Positions 52,201-63,472 of a stretch of DNA of 64,000 nt are shown piece after piece (within the stretch, counting starts at the first letter, position 1; the number at the start of each line of letters is the position of its first letter). The notes under the pieces are model-generated. The model saw nothing but the letters and a program-made list of their open reading frames with translations. It had not been told where the DNA came from and searched no databases. The DNA is from Fodinibius saliphilus (GTDB taxonomy: Bacteria > Bacteroidota > Rhodothermia > Balneolales > Balneolaceae): assembly GCF_005869845.1 (NCBI RefSeq), contig NZ_VAWF01000001.1, positions 682,001-746,000 of the forward strand. Direction: 5' to 3'. Made by a program: the position numbers and the translations under genes.

Positions 52201-52329
52201 GGCTAACGACATTGCGCATAAGCTGCAGGCGCCGGAGTGTCGAATTAATTACAAAATGAAAGGTTAACTAATAAACGGGAGCGTGGCAAGTGAGGGCGAG
52301 GCCTGTCCGAGTTAATGCGCTGGTTAGCT
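52201..52329. repeat. attC of cassette 8 (second attC family)
   Basis: GGCTAAC at 52201, then GACATTGCGCATAAGCTGCAG, a middle with TTAACTAATAAA, right arm GGCGAGGCCTGTCC ... TTAATGCGC, ending GTTAGCT. It is 129 bases. The TAA stop of its gene lies inside the right core. Confidence 0.93.
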
Positions 52330-53205
52330 GGTTGGCTTATCAATATTCTCAAATTCAAAACCTAGATCTAACAAGGGACCAAATGGAAACTTGGTTAAAG
52401 TTGCTTCCATTTTCCCATTATCATCTTCGATTTTTACTAATCCAACAGCAAAATTTATAGCCTTCTCAATTTCATTATCGAACAGGTTCATTAGTTTCAT
52501 CGCATCATCTCTTAGAATCGCCTTTTCTTTAGAACTAACCTTCTCATCAATGCCCTTTATGTAGTTTACTGCAGACTCAAAAAGTTTTAAAGGGTCAATT
52601 TCTTTAGGCTGTTCTTTTAGTTTTTTCTTTTCTATTTCCTTCCATCCGTCAAACTTATTTAATAAAACATCTCTGTCAAGATGCCAACTTATTTCTGAGT
52701 TATAAGTTTGTTCTGACTTATCTTGTAAATTTGCGGTTGCTGTCGCGGTAATCGGTTTTCCAACATGTAGAACAAAATTCCTGAGTTGATAGATAATTGA
52801 ATAATCATCTGTTTCATCATAAAAATGAGATGTTGTTTCATCAAAGTGTTCAAACATCTCTGAATTTTCTCCATAGCTTCGTTTTAACCTTGTTTCGGTA
52901 TGATCAAGAAATAATCTGAATGCCATGAGTACGTTTGCAGCATGTCTGTTTACATTAAACAAAGCATTTAATTTCTTTTCTCTGTCAAAATGTTGAGGAT
53001 TGAATTCTTTGGGCAATTCTGAAAAAGAATGTTCGAATTGGATAAAGTTAGCTTCTAAAATTGATACTAAATCAAAATCCCTGTAATAGTAATTCAATTT
53101 TGAGTGAATCCTATCAAATTCATTGAAAGTATCTCTGGAGATTTCTCTGATCAGGGTATAATCACCACCATGAATTGCAAAAGTGTAAGGTTTCCTGTTT
53201 TCCAT
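52324..53205 (-). CDS. Cassette 8: helical protein with HEPN-like RNxxxH motif
   Basis: The 293-residue protein is predicted all-helical. A helix-rich middle region (residues about 75-150) ends in LRNFVLHVGK, giving R142-N-x3-H147, the RX4-6H signature of HEPN ribonucleases. The preceding helix with NVNRHAANVLMAFRLFLDHTE is consistent with the HEPN four-helix fold. No other domain is recognised. The stop codon is inside the attC. HEPN RNases are common effectors of phage defence and toxin systems; this role is inferred from motif and context only. Confidence 0.55.
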   Translation of the reverse strand: MENRKPYTFAIHGGDYTLIREISRDTFNEFDRIHSKLNYYYRDFDLVSILEANFIQFEHSFSELPKEFNPQHFDREKKLNALFNVNRHAANVLMAFRLFLDHTETRLKRSYGENSEMFEHFDETTSHFYDETDDYSIIYQLRNFVLHVGKPITATATANLQDKSEQTYNSEISWHLDRDVLLNKFDGWKEIEKKKLKEQPKEIDPLKLFESAVNYIKGIDEKVSSKEKAILRDDAMKLMNLFDNEIEKAINFAVGLVKIEDDNGKMEATLTKFPFGPLLDLGFEFENIDKPTS

Positions 53206-53227: not shown

Positions 53228-53355
53228 AGCTAACGACATTGCGCATAAGCTGCAGGCGCTAACGTGTTGAAATTATTTACAAATGAAAGGTTAACTATAA
53301 AAAGTGAGGCTGGCAAGAATAGGCGAGGCCTGTCCGCTTAATGCGCGGGTTAGGT
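53228..53355. repeat. attC of cassette 7 (second attC family)
   Basis: AGCTAAC at 53228, GACATTGCGCATAAGCTGCAG, TTAACTATAAA in the middle, GGCGAGGCCTGTCCGCTTAA, ending GTTAGGT. 128 bases. The stop of the cassette gene overlaps the core. Confidence 0.94.
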
Positions 53356-54294
53356 TCCACCGACCAGTATTTCATGAATTTGAAGATAAATATTTCCTTT
53401 TTGGGCTGCTGCTCTTCTTTTTCTTAGCAATAGTTTGATTAGGTCAATTCTTCCTTCTAAAACTGCCATTAAATCACTACCGTCCATCAAAATCATTAGG
53501 CTTCGTCCAGAAGAATGGACTTCAACTGCATCCTGTGAAAAGCCATTAATTGAGAGAAAAAGTCCTAAGGTGTTTTCAAGTTTTCGCGATAGTTTACCTG
53601 CTAAGCTATCTAAATCTTGGGCATTAACTGGATTATTTTGCCACTTACATTCAAATAGATAATCAGTGTTTTCAAATGTAAAAGCACCATCAATCTGTTC
53701 AGCTTTGATTTTAAAAGAAGCTTTGGGATCGAGATCAAAAAGCTCAAATAAATCCTTCAGGATCGTTTCTAACTGATAACCTCTTTGCTGTGGATCATCA
53801 GAAGAAAGCAATTCATAATAAACTTTTTTAAGCTCTTTAAGCTTTTCTTTGACAGCAGTGGTCTCCATCATTTTTTGATGGGCTTCTTCACGTCTTCTTT
53901 CAATTTCTTTTTCTTCCTCCAAAATATCTTCAAGACCTTTTATTTGTTCCTGGAGGGCTTTTACTGAATCTTCAGCTCTTTCAATTTTTTCTTCACCATC
54001 TTCGATACGTGCCAAATGACTAAAGTCTTTAACTTTGGCTACATCAGTCATCAACTTCAAAAGCTTTCTTTGATATACATCTTCGTTTCGAGCAAGAAAG
54101 TCAACAAGGTTACCTACCACATTTCTTTTATAATCATCCCAATTAAGTTTAGCAATTAATTGAGAATCTTGGAGGCTGTGAGATAAGAAACTTCTTAAAT
54201 CAGACTTAAACCAGTAAATGTAAGTTAACGCCTCTTTTAAAGCATGAAGAGCAGCAGGTGAAATTTGTTTTGTATGATCTCTATTCTTGGTCAT
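53350..54294 (-). CDS. Cassette 7: coiled-coil Mrr-like restriction endonuclease (PD-(D/E)xK)
   Basis: The 314-residue protein starts with a helical N-terminal region (residues 12-95, PAALHALKEALTYIYWFKSDL), then a coiled coil at about 100-165 (EKIERAEDSVKALQEQIKGL), then a nuclease core: E176 in GYQLETILKDLF, D202 in EQIDGAF, and E215-x-K217 in YLFECKW. That is the PD-(D/E)xK order of Mrr-type enzymes. It likely cleaves DNA under control of the N-terminal region. No methyltransferase is in the cassette, so self-protection must work otherwise. Confidence 0.82.
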   Translation of the reverse strand: MTKNRDHTKQISPAALHALKEALTYIYWFKSDLRSFLSHSLQDSQLIAKLNWDDYKRNVVGNLVDFLARNEDVYQRKLLKLMTDVAKVKDFSHLARIEDGEEKIERAEDSVKALQEQIKGLEDILEEEKEIERRREEAHQKMMETTAVKEKLKELKKVYYELLSSDDPQQRGYQLETILKDLFELFDLDPKASFKIKAEQIDGAFTFENTDYLFECKWQNNPVNAQDLDSLAGKLSRKLENTLGLFLSINGFSQDAVEVHSSGRSLMILMDGSDLMAVLEGRIDLIKLLLRKRRAAAQKGNIYLQIHEILVGGT

Positions 54295-55269: not shown

Positions 55270-56589
55270 CTAATAAACTTTGACCATTAATTCTTCTAAC
55301 CATTTCAAAATAGAATCCTTTGATGATGCAAAACTCTCTAAATCTTGACGAGTTATTAATGCGATATGGTAGTCTTCTTTTGAAGACCGTTTTAATTCAG
55401 TTACCACTTCCCTTGAAAAGCCATTGAAACCAACAAAAATCCCAATTTTAACCAGTTTTGAATGATTTCGTAATTTACCTTCAAAATCTCTTAATTCCGC
55501 TGTACCAACTTTTTCCTTCCAGTTTTTACATTCTATAAAAATTAAGGGACTAGAAAATGCATTCCAGAAGGGTTTGTTAAGGTCATTTTTCACTAATAAA
55601 TCTATTTCTTCATCACCATTCGAATATTTTTTATCAATTACATCTAGGCCCGAAATATTCGAGAAAATTATGTCAGTTATATCTTCTAATGCTTTACCTT
55701 TTAAATAATTTGAACCTGAAGGAATGTTGTCAATTCTATCCAGTTCTTCAGTGATCTTATTCTTTAAAACTAACTTTTTTAGATTTTCTTCTTCATTAAT
55801 TATCGACTCAAAAAACTTATTGAAGATATTGACCTTTTTTATCAAGTGATTTGCTGATTTTTCTTGGAAATTCTTTATCTCTTCTGGTTCTTCATATAAA
55901 TCAGCAAGGTCTAAAATGACTGGCTCTTCCTTTGGATGAGATTCAAGAAGAAATCGAAAATATATTATTGATATAATTTCTTGGTAATCCCTTTCTATAT
56001 CATATTCAAACAAGTTTGAAATTATGAAAATCCAAGGAGGGTATTTTAAAGTTCTACCAAAAAGAAATTGATGAAGATCATGTTGGACATAAATAGAACC
56101 ACTATTTGTACTGCTTGGTTGGATTGAATAACTGTTCCCGTCTTTACTTTGAACCGTAGATTCTTCTCCATGTTTTGAAGCCTTCAATAAAGGAAGTATA
56201 AAATTAATGTAATCCTGAAGTTCCTCCGAACGTGATAATCTTGGGAATTTTTCTAAGTGATCTGAAATTTTTTTCTCAACATCTCCATTTTCGCGGTGAT
56301 CTTCTAAATCATATTTCAATGAAAACAAATAGTCTTCCCTTAGTTCTTCATAAATACTTTTGTAGAAGGTTTCAATTAATTCCCAATCAAAGCCCCATTG
56401 ATCTAACTTATTTAAAGCTTGCTCACATGTAGTTTTATATCCAAAGTATAGTAACTCTTCTTCCTCATCTATCACTTCCGAATCTTCAAAATAATCGTCT
56501 TTGCCAAACAAAAATGAAACATGCGGTGGGAGATAATATTTCCAGGATAGTTCTTCATCTCCTATATGTAGGTTTGAATAATGACCCAT
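55270..56589 (-). CDS. Cassette 5: HEPN/Toprim-associated N-terminal domain fused to Mrr-like nuclease
   Basis: The 439-residue protein starts MGHYSNLHIGDEELSWKYYL, the pattern of the 'HEPN/Toprim N-terminal domain' found in predicted defence proteins. The C-terminal nuclease has E302 in KGKALEDIT, D330 in GDEEIDLLV and E353-C-K355 in FIECKNW, a PD-(D/E)xK restriction endonuclease core. The central ~190 residues are helical and unassigned. The architecture suggests an antiviral DNA nuclease. The cassette carries only this gene. The family call is by motif; no database search was run. Confidence 0.78.
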   Translation of the reverse strand: MGHYSNLHIGDEELSWKYYLPPHVSFLFGKDDYFEDSEVIDEEEELLYFGYKTTCEQALNKLDQWGFDWELIETFYKSIYEELREDYLFSLKYDLEDHRENGDVEKKISDHLEKFPRLSRSEELQDYINFILPLLKASKHGEESTVQSKDGNSYSIQPSSTNSGSIYVQHDLHQFLFGRTLKYPPWIFIISNLFEYDIERDYQEIISIIYFRFLLESHPKEEPVILDLADLYEEPEEIKNFQEKSANHLIKKVNIFNKFFESIINEEENLKKLVLKNKITEELDRIDNIPSGSNYLKGKALEDITDIIFSNISGLDVIDKKYSNGDEEIDLLVKNDLNKPFWNAFSSPLIFIECKNWKEKVGTAELRDFEGKLRNHSKLVKIGIFVGFNGFSREVVTELKRSSKEDYHIALITRQDLESFASSKDSILKWLEELMVKVY

Positions 56590-56634
56590 TCTTTTTTTTA
56601 AACTGTTTTGAATTTAGAGTGAATTTGGGAGTGC

Positions 56635-56724
56635 AACTAACGACCCTGCGTTTAAGCGGCGAGCCGAGTTGTTAAAATTAAGATTCCGAACCCTAAACGA
56701 GTCCGCTTGAAACGCTTGTTAGCC
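56635..56724. repeat. attC of cassette 4 (short, divergent type)
   Basis: AACTAAC at 56635, arm GACCCTGCGTTTAAGCGGCG, right arm GAGTCCGCTTGAAACGCTT, ending GTTAGCC. At 90 bases it is the shortest in the array. Confidence 0.85.
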
Positions 56725-56734
56725 ATTTGATAGT

Positions 56735-57763
56735 TTAGTAATCACCAACTAAAGGTGGTAATTTGTGAAACCAAACTGCATTAAATACATGAACACAATT
56801 CTTTTGTAGCCATGTATCCCATTCGTCAGGATTACGAGTTATTATTCTGTTATTTGACTCGTTTTCACAAAGTTTAAGTAGAATTTTATCTAATACATCG
56901 ATTATTATTTCAAGGTCATCGGCAAATATTTCAGCAAAATCCCACCATTTTGTATGACTTGGATGTGCGCCAAAATGATTTCTAAGGGTTTCAAGGTCTT
57001 CTAAATAAGCAATTAAATCTGGGCTTATACTTAGCGATTCTATTTTGCTTAATCTATTTCCAGATACTTGATCTAATCTATTTTGACAATACTCACTGAT
57101 CACACTTATACAAGCAACAAATGCAGTTACTGACTCTTCAAAATCATCTTGCTCAAATAGTTTTATACCTTTCCAATAATTATAAATGGTCCTATGGATT
57201 AGCGGGTCTAAGCAATTAAGTATTGATATCCAATTTTTGAATTCTTCTTTGAGTTCAAAGTTAGGATCAATATTCACTTTCTTGTATTCAGGAAGTTTTA
57301 TGTCGTCAATGTTAAAATATTCTAGGTGTGAGGCATAAATTCCTTTGAAACGAAAATCACAAGCCCTTTTATAGGTTAAGGCAATAGCGCCTGTTATGTT
57401 TAAAGCTCTTGATCTTGCAATAAATTGTTCTGCGAAATGAAGAAAAAATTTAACTATGTCCTGAACATCTTCATCTTTTATAAACCTCCAGCCTCTTTTC
57501 CAGGATGGGGTAATAGTCCCAACAATTAATTCTTCATTAGTATTTTGATAAAGTATTTCACCTGAAGAACTGTATTCTAAACTTAAATATTCAGAATTAC
57601 TGAGTGGTCTTAATACAATATACTTTTCAGTATTTCTTGTTCGAAGCTCTTCCCAAAATTTATTGTCAATTACATCTTTTAGTTTGTCAACTTTACCCTT
57701 TGGAAGATGGTAATCCTCAATTGCCCATCTTATAAAATCATTTTTAAATTGTTTTATACTCAA
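56735..57763 (-). CDS. Cassette 4, second gene: HEPN-like protein with RNHFGAH motif
   Basis: The 342-residue protein has an N-terminal half of mixed alpha/beta (to about 165), then a helical C-terminal domain ending with LEDLETLRNHFGAHP, in which R261-N-x4-H267 is the HEPN RNase signature and the preceding helices (DDFEESVTAFVACISVISEY) fit the fold. It starts 24 bases after the cyclase-like gene and shares its cassette. A nucleotide-activated RNase partner of a cyclase is one reading; that link is inference. Confidence 0.6.
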   Translation of the reverse strand: MSIKQFKNDFIRWAIEDYHLPKGKVDKLKDVIDNKFWEELRTRNTEKYIVLRPLSNSEYLSLEYSSSGEILYQNTNEELIVGTITPSWKRGWRFIKDEDVQDIVKFFLHFAEQFIARSRALNITGAIALTYKRACDFRFKGIYASHLEYFNIDDIKLPEYKKVNIDPNFELKEEFKNWISILNCLDPLIHRTIYNYWKGIKLFEQDDFEESVTAFVACISVISEYCQNRLDQVSGNRLSKIESLSISPDLIAYLEDLETLRNHFGAHPSHTKWWDFAEIFADDLEIIIDVLDKILLKLCENESNNRIITRNPDEWDTWLQKNCVHVFNAVWFHKLPPLVGDY

Positions 57764-57787
57764 TTTGTAATGGGATTTATAGACTAT

Positions 57788-58654
57788 TTAAATTTCACAA
57801 ATTAGATCTTCGTTATCGGACCACTGTTTTGCAATTTTATTATGATAAGTTGATAGCCATCGGTATTTATTTTTTACTTTTTCTGATTTAGCATTTTTGA
57901 AAGCTAATTCTATTTGTGAAGAATGGACTTCTAAACAGTGCTCGGTATTTTTTTGATAACCTTGGTTTCTAATTGTATCTCTTTCTTCCGCAGTTTCTGC
58001 CGCATCAAACTTTTTACGTTGCTCTGCATCAGTTTGCCAGTTAATATTTTGTAAGACAATTTCTAGATAGTTGATAAAGTGAAAGGTGTTATCTCCAGAA
58101 TCATATAATTCAAACATGCTTTCCAATACACCGGAATTATCACCATAAAATTCTTTTTTATCGGGATGATTCTCAAACTTGTCATAAAGATCCTTAGATA
58201 GTGCAATAACAGGAACATCAGCACTTCCCTCAACTTTATATGCTTGTGTCAGACTTTGACTTATGACTATATGATCAGTGTTATACCACCATCCTGAATC
58301 AATACCTCCCCTTAAAAAAATTGATTGTTGAATGCATCTTATTTGGGCCAGAGCAATTCGTACAAATTCAAACATATACCCATCAAAAGTACCTGTATAT
58401 ACAGTTGATTCTGATTCAAGGGGAATGTTAATTACAACACAATCAGAAAAAGCTAAAACCGTTTTTGTGGGTAGATCCGAATCCATTGCATCTCTCTCTG
58501 GATCATTGTATTCAAACTCTTCTTGAACTTTCTTAATCTCATTTGCAACATTGTTTATATCCTCAAGTGTATTTGAATTCAGTACTTTATTTCCGAAGCC
58601 TAGGATATCAATAAATCCAGTAATACCAGCTGATATTTCGTCTTCTTGAATCAT
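57788..58654 (-). CDS. Cassette 4, first gene: class III nucleotidyl cyclase-like protein
   Basis: The 288-residue protein follows the order of class III cyclase elements: TGFIDILGFGNKV (first metal Asp at residue 16), VLAFSDCVVINIP (D71), IFLRGGIDSGWWYNTDHIVI (residues about 112-131) and SQSLTQAYKVEGSADVPVIALS (132-153), like the VN-x-AARLE ... I-x-S part. The C-terminal ~100 residues are unassigned and charged. The catalytic Asp pair spacing is atypical, so activity is not certain. A stand-alone cyclase beside a HEPN-like gene resembles nucleotide-signalling defence systems. Confidence 0.55.
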   Translation of the reverse strand: MIQEDEISAGITGFIDILGFGNKVLNSNTLEDINNVANEIKKVQEEFEYNDPERDAMDSDLPTKTVLAFSDCVVINIPLESESTVYTGTFDGYMFEFVRIALAQIRCIQQSIFLRGGIDSGWWYNTDHIVISQSLTQAYKVEGSADVPVIALSKDLYDKFENHPDKKEFYGDNSGVLESMFELYDSGDNTFHFINYLEIVLQNINWQTDAEQRKKFDAAETAEERDTIRNQGYQKNTEHCLEVHSSQIELAFKNAKSEKVKNKYRWLSTYHNKIAKQWSDNEDLICEI

Positions 58655-58676: not shown

Positions 58677-58804
58677 GGCTAACGACATTGCGCATAACCG
58701 GCGCACGGATTGATGTTGAATTAGCAACTAACGAAAGTAGACTCTTAAAACCAAGAGCGGCAAAGAATTGGCGAGGTGCGTCCGCGTTAATGCGCGGGTT
58801 AGGG
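58677..58804. repeat. attC of cassette 3 (first attC family)
   Basis: GGCTAAC at 58677, GACATTGCGCATAACCGGCGC, ACGGATTGATGTTGAATTAG, right arm GGCGAGGTGCGTCCGCGTTAA, ending GTTAGGG. 128 bases; nearly the same as the IS-split site at 48663. Confidence 0.94.
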
Positions 58805-60935: not shown

Positions 60936-61853
60936 TTACTCTTCCTCAAGAAATGCTCGATCTCCAAACATTTGTAGGTCTTGCTGAAAAGCTTTGAACA
61001 TTTCTGTGTTGGTAACCTTTTCGGGATTATCTTTAATAAATTGATTTATTTTTTCTCTTTGCGTTTCTGAATAGGAAGAAGATATATCTTGTACTTTTTG
61101 CGATCTTTCTATTAAGTAATTACCAAACCCACCTGGCAACTCATATTTTGTTTTTGGCTTAATTTTACCTTTACCTAATGTGACTTTTGTTCCTTTCCAG
61201 TCTTGATCACCTCTTGATATGAAGCCAAACAACATAAATTTAGCTAATTTTGTATAGATAAAACCTGCCTTACTACTGTAGACTATGTCAGTACCAAAGC
61301 CTCGAGCCATATAACGATTGAAATTTGAAGGGAGGTCATGAAATGTATGAGATTCTAGCAAATCTACTGGTAATAGGTGAAGTTCAAAACCATCTGGACT
61401 TGTTATTTCACCAACAATAAAATCGTGCCATTTACTTAATGCTTTCGGTATTAAAATTCGAAGGCCTCTCGGATAGTTATTTAATGCACCGGCTAATTGA
61501 TAACACTTCAAAATTCTCCAATTGATTGATGCTATAAATTTTGGGAGCCAGATATCATACTCTAAAACTTGGTCAGCAGATTTATGGTAGGGTCTAAATA
61601 TTTTCTCCATAAACTTCTTTTCGTACACCCCAAACCTCTGTTCACACTCATCACATAATAATTTTGTCTTCCATACATCTTGTCTTCTAAGATTTGGATT
61701 TTCTGCATTGCGTAAAAAGCCGGTAGCTGAGGTCTTCTTTACCCATTTTCCAAAAGATTTAGGAATTATATGACTCTCTCTAAGTTCTCTGTCTAACTTA
61801 CAAAAAGCGCATTTATCTAATTCAAAATCTGAATTAAATGGATTGTTGCTCAT
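60936..61853 (-). CDS. Cassette 1: HNH-like zinc protein, first cassette next to attI
   Basis: The 305-residue protein has CAFCK, then RESHIIPKSFGKW, and CDECEQRF about 45 residues later: the same C-x2-C / HIIP / C-x2-C treble-clef layout as HNH-type endonucleases. A helical middle and a Lys/Gly-rich segment (GTKVTLGKGKIKPKTKYE) follow. As the first cassette it should be the most recently captured or best expressed. Activity is inferred from the motif. Confidence 0.7.
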   Translation of the reverse strand: MSNNPFNSDFELDKCAFCKLDRELRESHIIPKSFGKWVKKTSATGFLRNAENPNLRRQDVWKTKLLCDECEQRFGVYEKKFMEKIFRPYHKSADQVLEYDIWLPKFIASINWRILKCYQLAGALNNYPRGLRILIPKALSKWHDFIVGEITSPDGFELHLLPVDLLESHTFHDLPSNFNRYMARGFGTDIVYSSKAGFIYTKLAKFMLFGFISRGDQDWKGTKVTLGKGKIKPKTKYELPGGFGNYLIERSQKVQDISSSYSETQREKINQFIKDNPEKVTNTEMFKAFQQDLQMFGDRAFLEEE

Positions 61854-61867
61854 AGTTGATGATTTTG

Positions 61868-62092
61868 GCCTAACATAGTCTTATTTGTATGAGATCTATA
61901 GTACCTATCATACACATAACATGCAAAAGTGTCCTCAATAAGGTTTAAGGCCTGATTTTACTCATGTTATGTGTCTCAATTTATTGGTACTAGTACACAT
62001 AATGTCTATGCATAATATCATATTATGTGTAAGGATTTGCATGGGGGTTGGTCTTACTATTAAATCATAAGATCAAGAAAGAGTGGGCAAAT
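61868..62092. promoter_or_regulatory. attI / intI promoter region with four ACACATAA motifs
   Basis: GCCTAAC at 61868-61874 is the junction core beside the first cassette. The region then holds ACACATAACATG (61912-61923) and its exact reverse complement CATGTTATGTGT (61963-61974), and TACACATAAT (61994-62003) with its exact reverse complement ATTATGTGTA (62022-62031). Such repeats fit binding sites for the integrase or for a regulator of divergent intI and cassette promoters. Neither promoter could be placed with certainty. Confidence 0.75.
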
Positions 62093-63049
62093 ATGGCCAG
62101 CCAATTACTTCAAAGAGTAAGAGAGGAAATTAGAAGACGAAATTACAGTTATCGTACGGAGAAAGCCTACATCCGTTGGATAACGCGATTTGTGAAATTT
62201 CATAAGTTAACACACCCTGAAAAGATGGGCAAAGAAGAGGTTATGGAGTATCTAAATTGGTTAGCTAATGAAAGGAATGTGGCTGCTTCTACACAAAATC
62301 AAGCGTTATGTGCTATTGTTTTTTTGTATAAACAGGTGATGGAAAAGAAACTGGGGCAATTTGATAATCTTACCAGGGCTAAAGAATCAAACCACCTTCC
62401 GGTAGTACTGTCACGTTATGAGGCCCGAAAAATAATTGGGTTGATGAATGGTGATGCACAACTAATGGTAGAACTCCTCTATGGAAGTGGTCTTCGGCAG
62501 TCTGAGTGCCTGAGATTACGAGTTAAAGATATAGATTTTGAATTCAATCAGCTTTGGATACGCAATGGCAAAGGAAATAAAGATCGGACTACCGTTTTAC
62601 CTCAGAAAAGTAAACAAAAACTTAAAGAGCAGATTGAAAAAGTGAAGGTGCTCCATAAGAAAGATTTAAATAATGGCTATGGGAGTATAATACTGCCGAA
62701 AGCTTTATCTAAAAAATATCCCAAACTGAATAAAGCACTGGGATGGCAATATCTATTTCCAACAAATAAAATCAGTACGGATCCACGGTCGGGATTAAAA
62801 CAGCGGTATCACAGGTCGTCATCTTATCTACACAAAGCAATTAAAGAAGCAGTACAAAAAACAGATATTCTTAAAAAGGTTAGCAGCCACACATTTCGGC
62901 ACTCTTTTGCTACACACCTTCTAAATGATGGTTATGATATCCGAACGGTACAGGAACTGCTAGGGCACAAAGATGTTAAAACAACCATGGTTTATACCCA
63001 CGTCATTAAAAATAAAGGGAGTGTGGTACAGTCACCTATTGATTCTTAG
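62093..63049 (+). CDS. intI: Integron integrase IntI (tyrosine recombinase)
   Basis: The 318-residue recombinase starts at the ATG at 62093 (MASQLLQRVREEIRRRNYSY); an upstream TTG in frame is less likely. Catalytic residues are R135 (GLRQSECLRL), H266 and R269 (SSHTFRHSFATH), H292 (LLGHKDVKTT) and Y301. The IntI-specific insertion between about 203 and 232 (KALSKKYPKLNKALGWQYLF) distinguishes it from XerC/D. It catalyses capture of cassettes at attI and shuffling through single-stranded attC. It is divergent from the cassettes and appears intact. Confidence 0.96.
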   Translation: MASQLLQRVREEIRRRNYSYRTEKAYIRWITRFVKFHKLTHPEKMGKEEVMEYLNWLANERNVAASTQNQALCAIVFLYKQVMEKKLGQFDNLTRAKESNHLPVVLSRYEARKIIGLMNGDAQLMVELLYGSGLRQSECLRLRVKDIDFEFNQLWIRNGKGNKDRTTVLPQKSKQKLKEQIEKVKVLHKKDLNNGYGSIILPKALSKKYPKLNKALGWQYLFPTNKISTDPRSGLKQRYHRSSSYLHKAIKEAVQKTDILKKVSSHTFRHSFATHLLNDGYDIRTVQELLGHKDVKTTMVYTHVIKNKGSVVQSPIDS

Positions 63050-63172: not shown

Positions 63173-63472
63173 ATGGCACAGTCATCTTTACTTAGTAAAA
63201 TGCGCACCGAAATACGCCGCCGGCAGTACAGCTATTTTACCGAGCAGGCCTACATTAAATGGGTAATTCAATTTTTGAAATATCATAACATGCAGCATCC
63301 CGCTGAACTGGACGAAGAAGATGTACTGCGGTTCCTGATCTACTTGGCCGAAACCAAACAATATTCACTGGCAATACAAAAACAGGCACTTTCAGCATTA
63401 CTGTTTTTATATGACCGTATATTAGGATCGCCGCTTGAGACGCTTAATAGACCTCAAGTATACGAATGGTAG
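63173..63472 (+). pseudogene. Truncated second intI-like integrase (N-terminal SAM-like domain only)
   Basis: The 99-residue product aligns with residues 1-95 of the IntI at 62093 (EIRRRQYSYFTEQAYIKWVI against EIRRRNYSYRTEKAYIRWIT) and then stops. The catalytic domain is missing. The sequence before its ATG (TATTGTAAGGATTGG) resembles that before intI. It is a fossil paralogue of the same integrase, either a decayed older platform or a duplication. Confidence 0.88.

Follow-up and report, generated by a model that had tools for sequence, protein, structure and literature searches.

A two-gene integron cassette of Fodinibius saliphilus encoding a class III cyclase-like protein and a HEPN-like protein

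Introduction

Among described bacterial immune systems, those closest to the locus reported here are Pycsar, in which the cyclase PycC is partnered by PycTIR or PycTM, and Panoptes, which is built around mCpol. Class III cyclases use an Asn-Arg pair as their transition-state catalytic residues, and mCpol has a polymerase palm. According to passages of PMC12657218, the mCpol nucleotide synthase is coupled to HEPN RNases in some loci, and HEPN, nucleotide cyclase and Pycsar occur together in that paper and in PMC10952713. A literature search for a class III adenylate cyclase joined with HEPN in defence found none. Excerpts of PMC12409362 report integrons as stores of antiphage cassettes and cite Darracq 2025 and Kieffer 2025 for antiphage cassettes of chromosomal integrons.

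Here, we describe a pair of genes from F. saliphilus, located in a stretch of 64,000 nucleotides (the window, whose numbering is used throughout) of contig NZ_VAWF01000001.1. A sequence-only reading had proposed that one gene encodes a cyclase-like and the other a HEPN-like protein, following the logic of Pycsar/CBASS-like systems. Our analysis leaves that logic plausible for the pair, with qualifications concerning both proteins.

Results

Both open reading frames are intact within positions 56735-58654. Gene 1 (57788..58654, minus strand), the class III cyclase-like gene, encodes 288 amino acids from an ATG start and lies upstream of gene 2 (56735..57763, minus strand), the HEPN-like gene, which encodes 342 amino acids from a TTG start backed by a colinear start in a homologue from Aliarcobacter. 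The stop of gene 1 and the start of gene 2 are separated by 24 bases (57764..57787) on the same strand. That the two genes share one cassette, as first proposed, is borne out by an integron integrase and attC-like sites: gene 1 and gene 2 jointly occupy a single cassette in a chromosomal integron.

The integrase, IntI (62048..63049, plus strand), scores 433.5 bits with the model TIGR02249 (cut-off 265). Beside it lies a truncated fragment of a second integron integrase (63173-63472, plus strand), covering positions 1-87 of 315 of the same model. From the integrase down to about 50 kb, all open reading frames of at least 90 amino acids are on the minus strand. One 24-mer from the attC-like repeats between the cassette genes occurs six times in the window with at most three mismatches and in none of 100 shuffles. 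Two attC-like sites with bounds set by eye flank the pair, one at 58677..58804 (plus strand), which belongs to the preceding cassette and marks the start of this one, and one at 56634..56722 (plus strand), which has CTAAC...GTTAG ends and marks its downstream end; the latter is absent from the 24-mer matches and was recognized solely by its ends and fold. With the cassette genes on the minus strand, folding of an attC site is expected of the plus strand; the ends of each site are complementary, and each folds better on that strand. The fold energy is −23.0 versus −16.5 on the other strand for the site at 58677-58804 (2 of 200 shuffles fold equally well) and −11.7 versus −10.1 for that at 56634-56722 (6 of 200).

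Genes at 60936, 59768 and 58811 stand between IntI and the pair, which is therefore counted as cassette four of the array. A single open reading frame of at least 90 amino acids is present in each neighbouring cassette, namely the one at 55270-56589 and those between 58811 and 61853, three in number. Only 22 bases separate the first attC-like site, as bounded by eye, from the start codon of gene 1, leaving scant space for a dedicated promoter.

Two nearby cassette genes encode Mrr-type nuclease domains. The protein at 55270-56589 (minus strand) matches HEPN_Toprim_N (1.5e-7) and Mrr_cat (2.6e-9), both above the Pfam cut-off; an N-terminal domain of HEPN/Toprim type is here joined to a nuclease domain. 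The protein at 53350-54294 (minus strand) matches Mrr_cat (2.3e-7) and, below threshold, the effector-associated domain EAD8; two further nearby cassette genes have HNH matches below the cut-off. A 293-residue cassette protein at 52324-53205 (minus strand) carries an RNFVLH motif and appears HEPN-like by eye, with no Pfam or PADLOC match.

Gene 1 displays the motifs IDILGF (with Asp16), FSD (Asp71), RGGIDSG (Arg115) and SQSLTQAY in the order claimed for it from the sequence. Its layout is a core of approximately residues 1-199 followed by a helical hairpin (residues 222-280). Searches of Pfam, NCBIfam and PADLOC gave no convincing match to gene 1 or to 16 of its relatives; weak Pfam matches to MACPF_1 and Peptidase_M9_N (E values of about 0.05) fell far short of the cut-off and were rejected. 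The class III cyclase model PF00211 gave no match to gene 1 at an E value of 5.

Two alignments of the gene 1 family were used. A4 has 17 rows, taken from gene 1 and 24 plasmid or genome loci with a relative, and leaves out L009, which is a longer fusion, the short L010, two near copies of L032 (L033 and L034), two loci whose frame contains a stop (L040 and L041), and two whose start is weak or odd (L042 and L046). A6 has 25 rows, gene 1 and 24 of 31 viral loci, and leaves out the repeats L091, L101, L103 and L129 as well as L064, L082 and L119. With gene 1 present in both, they amount to 41 distinct rows. None of the 17 A4 rows matched PF00211 at 0.1.

A structure of gene 1 predicted from A6, i.e. 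from gene 1 and 24 viral-contig relatives, has a mean pLDDT of 83.5 and a pTM of 0.83. The order of strands and helices in the model is that of class III cyclases, with Asp71 in the turn of the first hairpin. A Foldseek search of the PDB with the model gave 611 matches at E values of at most 10, 74 of them at 0.001 or below. Each of the best 50 of the 611 is an adenylyl, guanylyl or uridylate cyclase (lowest E value 1.3e-5; the uridylate cyclase 8jsz ranks 46th). VIA-align gave Z scores of up to 14.1 (165 residues, r.m.s.d. 3.3), and the 50 rows listed are again all cyclases; its matches fall mostly within residues 1-199 and barely cover the C-terminal helices. In a viral structure library two matches were found at E values of 0.001 or below, neither of them labelled as phage. 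The PDB searched by sequence gave one weak cyclase match in register (5d0g, E = 0.46), which was lost when a wider gene 1 profile was used.

Profile comparison points in the same direction as the model. The canonical set comprised eight PF00211 cyclases drawn from the same genome and from related ones (eight of 20 loci passed a motif filter), and two different alignments of the gene 1 family, each compared with it in a single pairwise comparison, gave E values of 1.2e-5 and 1.9e-5 with probabilities of 81 and 78. As controls, reversed profiles gave 0.49 and 0.54; when columns were shuffled 20 times, the best values were 0.14 and 0.31. In both alignments Asp16 and Asp71 fall at the positions of the metal aspartates, and RGGIDSG coincides with the R-x-GI-x-x-G strand. 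The predicted fold and these comparisons support the assignment of gene 1 as a distant homologue of the class III nucleotide cyclases.

The metal aspartates Asp16 and Asp71 are invariant in all 17 A4 rows and all 25 A6 rows, and the R-G strand (RGG at residues 115-117 in gene 1) is near-invariant over very divergent relatives. At the positions of the class III Asn and Arg, in the register given by the profile alignment, gene 1 has Thr136 and Lys140. Asn and Arg occur together in none of the 17 A4 rows and none of the 25 A6 rows, and hence in 0/41 distinct rows; singly, Asn is found at 136 in one A6 row and no A4 row, and Arg at 140 in one row of each alignment. Glu142 is conserved (24/25 in A6, 15/17 in A4). 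Given the absence of the pair from all 41 rows, gene 1 may not cyclize anything. Gene 1 is class III cyclase-like, and its chemistry cannot be read off from relatives. The cyclase-like assignment of the sequence-only reading thus stands as regards fold and distant homology, but needs the caveat, absent there, that the catalytic pair is replaced. An aromatic residue two positions before the first aspartate (Phe14), common to PycC proteins (Phe60, Tyr50 and Phe100 at the equivalent position, according to a passage of PMC11224242), was dropped as a marker because the canonical cyclases compared here have it too.

Relatives of gene 1 are found in 22 of 72,556 plasmid records, all with less than 60% identity, and by profile in 16 of 296 genomes of its own phylum, its own genome included; gene 1 alone as query finds them in ten of the 296. 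Among viral contigs, 31 of 85 loci fetched by motif have a relative at an E value below 1e-4, some of these being repeat sequences. Phage records gave no match to gene 1 or gene 2. A scan of genome contigs with gene 1 gave 19 candidate stretches, none of them confirmed by tblastn, and no candidate from scans of viral contigs by protein or alignment was confirmed. The phage protein family PHROG 23933, to which the library gives neither name nor function, matches residues 13-199 of gene 1 (E = 1.2e-17). A literature search found no paper on this family, and papers containing the letters DILGF were unrelated, judging from their titles.

The family occurs on plasmids, prophage-type contigs and chromosomes; its neighbours vary and many members stand alone. 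The nearest relatives (35-36%) are on plasmids of Phaeobacter (L003) and Labrenzia (L004), from two bacterial orders, where they directly follow a TrlF-type gene with a gap of less than 60 bases. The L003 gene, annotated as TrlF, matches 29 PADLOC models sharing an ATPase part, the best being Ppl (E = 2.6e-31), whose best stretch is in the C-terminal ATPase part. The L004 gene is a near copy split over two open reading frames. A literature search for TrlF with PHP and ATPase in a phage context found nothing. Other relatives adjoin restriction enzymes of HaeII type (L119) and of DpnII-MboI type (L039). The defence link of the family is an impression gained from such neighbours, not a statistic.

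Some further neighbourhoods deserve mention in their own right. Type I restriction genes were recognized, by eye only, near the relatives in L044 and L111. In three prophage-type viral contigs (L047, L104 and L116) the cyclase-like gene follows a ParA/AAA_31 ATPase with a gap of 0 or an overlap of four bases, forming a recurring two-gene unit. In another viral contig (L124:7436-8960) a protein with the HEPN-related domain DUF4145 is encoded 82 bases upstream of the cyclase-like gene and adjoins a gene reading as a terminase by eye.

Gene 2 contains the Rx4-6H motif RNHFGAH (Arg261-His267). The sequence-only reading had correctly spotted the motif but placed it at the end of the protein, whereas it occupies residues 261-267 of 342. 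An RNx2-4H pattern arises by chance in 7.5% of 20,000 shuffles of gene 2, and the motif is therefore weak by itself. It gains weight from being retained in the only homologue found, a plasmid protein of Aliarcobacter cryaerophilus that is 31% identical over 98% of the query: Arg261, Asn262, Phe264, Gly265, His267, Pro268 and Ser269 are all identical, and the block RNxFGxHPS..KWWDFAE is among the most conserved parts of the two proteins. The plasmid locus of the homologue is a defence setting, with bSEFIR (E = 1.4e-83) and PDC-S21 (E = 4.9e-118) genes upstream; no paper joining bSEFIR with HEPN was found in the literature.

Searches of Pfam and PADLOC gave no match to gene 2, and no nucleotide-binding, TIR or other domain was recognized. 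The best hhalign comparison, with Abi_C (E = 0.045), covers residues 251-316, the region of the motif, but is not significant against reversed controls of 0.11-0.49; DUF4145 (0.29) and HEPN (0.35) aligned away from the motif. Membership of gene 2 in a named HEPN family was therefore rejected, as no profile match was significant, and PHROG 17607 (E = 0.085) was likewise not significant. Structure prediction for both proteins followed by Foldseek had been suggested as a check, and it yielded class III cyclase matches for gene 1, but the single-sequence model of gene 2 has a pLDDT of only 35.3. From the motif and its conservation, gene 2 is possibly a HEPN protein.

Relatives of gene 2 are rare. 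One was found in 72,556 plasmid records; when plasmids were searched by tblastn with gene 2 and with its homologue, at an E value of 10, the other matches were only short pieces with E values of at least 0.3. The gene 2 alignment yielded 127 candidate stretches in a scan of genome contigs, 0 of which were confirmed by tblastn. Across 395 genomes a two-row gene 2 profile found only the match in its own genome, and the gene 2 protein found this match and one in G288 (E = 6.2e-5). The G288 match was rejected, being unsupported by the two-row profile and overlapping an open reading frame (L012, 778-1758) which, on inspection by eye, resembles a reverse transcriptase.

Recurrence of the pair in other genomes was a check set beforehand, and within the loci searched its outcome went against the proposal: a gene 2 relative was detected in 0 of 54 loci of the gene 1 family, with flanking DNA searched and some viral loci being short. 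The 54 comprise 23 plasmid or genome loci (L010 being left out) and 31 viral loci, sequence repeats included. Conversely, none of nine annotated genes within about 4 kb of the Aliarcobacter relative is labelled a cyclase, going by annotation only. The pairing can hardly be sampled because gene 2 relatives are so rare (1/72,556 plasmid records; 0/127 stretches confirmed), and it is possibly rare or recent.

Discussion

The single most likely reading, at somewhat less than an even chance and with its rivals together outweighing it, is that the pair is a two-gene antiphage cassette working like Pycsar. Upon infection, gene 1 would make a nucleotide product; this could be a cyclic mononucleotide or, as gene 1 lacks the class III Asn-Arg pair, something else. 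The N-terminal part of gene 2 would sense this product, and the HEPN-like part at its C terminus, judging from the motif, would cut RNA, which in turn may stop growth of the infected cell. Matches of gene 1 to cyclases in fold and profile, the shared cassette with its 24-base gap and the defence-type neighbours all speak for this reading, as do the reported antiphage cassettes of integrons and the reported coupling of mCpol to HEPN RNases. Against it stand the absence of Asn-Arg from 41/41 rows, the finding of the gene pair in 0 of 54 loci, the varied neighbours or solitary position of gene 1 relatives, the lack of a significant HEPN profile match for gene 2, the lack of a PADLOC match for either protein and the lack of a recognized nucleotide-binding domain in gene 2.

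Some of these observations would fit a toxin-antitoxin pair, with gene 2 as a HEPN RNase toxin that gene 1 restrains by contact or by nucleotide addition, on the model of the nucleotidyltransferase MntA, which modifies HepT. Toxin-antitoxin cassettes are frequent in chromosomal integrons, the putative inhibitor gene comes first, 24 bases before its partner in one cassette, and two metal aspartates without the cyclizing Asn-Arg are compatible with nucleotidyl transfer to a protein. However, the predicted fold of gene 1 matches class III cyclases, and no gene 1 relative examined has a detectable gene 2 relative; we consider this explanation unlikely. The same lack of recurrence (54 other gene 1-family loci), together with 0/9 annotated genes labelled cyclase around the relative of gene 2, would be expected of two unrelated genes that happen to share a cassette and act alone, perhaps each in defence. 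Set against this is the single open reading frame of at least 90 amino acids in each neighbouring cassette; two frames only 24 bases apart therefore suggest joint use, and independence of the two genes seems rather improbable.

The active site invites two other interpretations. Loss of Asn-Arg in 41/41 rows, with the metal site retained and Glu142 conserved instead, could mean that gene 1 is a pseudo-enzyme: it would bind nucleotides, serve as sensor for an NTP or a phage product and have gene 2 as its effector, with no second messenger. Strict metal aspartates and a near-invariant R-G strand across divergent relatives are, however, expected of an enzyme, and we are inclined to doubt the pseudo-enzyme. 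Alternatively, and in our estimation with only a small probability, gene 1 may represent a branch of the class III cyclases, large, as yet unnamed and linked to defence, which has dispensed with Asn-Arg chemistry, makes a different nucleotide signal and has interchangeable partners (Ppl-like TrlF, HEPN-like, ParA-like), the present cassette being its smallest HEPN-coupled form.

Should the gene 1 family produce a nucleotide signal despite lacking the usual catalytic residues, this would represent new chemistry in bacterial immune signalling. Annotation and defence surveys based on Pfam, NCBIfam or PADLOC, none of which has a model matching the gene 1 family, would pass over it. At about 2 kb, the two-gene cassette is small enough for direct testing.

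Comparison with known systems

The pair resembles Pycsar (PycC with PycTIR or PycTM) in being a two-gene unit and in the class III-like cyclase fold with two metal aspartates. It differs in that no TIR or other domain was found in gene 2 with Pfam or PADLOC, and in that the PADLOC library, which presumably contains Pycsar models, gave no match for gene 1, gene 2 or the 17 A4 rows. Gene 1 also lacks the Asn-Arg pair, as defined from class III enzymes rather than from PycC. In excerpts of PMC11224242, Pycsar clades B-E likewise have a single cyclase domain, and the spacing of the aspartates is 44 in AnPycC (Asp62/Asp106) and EaPycC (Asp102/Asp146), compared with 55 in gene 1.

With the class III cyclases of PF00211, gene 1 shares the core fold, the two metal aspartates and the R-x-GI-x-x-G strand in register; it differs in having no PF00211 match, in Thr136/Lys140 in place of Asn/Arg, and in a helical hairpin added at the C terminus, which carries a motif of KYxWxxxYHN type. 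The pair is filed neither as Pycsar nor as a canonical class III cyclase, since for each of them a defining feature was looked for and not found; these negative results lower the case that it is one, not that it works like one.

Panoptes/mCpol with a HEPN effector is alike in coupling a nucleotide synthase to a HEPN RNase, in some loci, according to the portion of PMC12657218 available. It differs in that mCpol is of Cas10 type, according to the title of PMC12657230, and gene 1 matches class III cyclases, mCpol being set apart by description only. Finally, the pair is like the antiphage cassettes of Darracq 2025 and Kieffer 2025, as these are cited in excerpts of PMC12409362, in forming a short cassette in an integron array.
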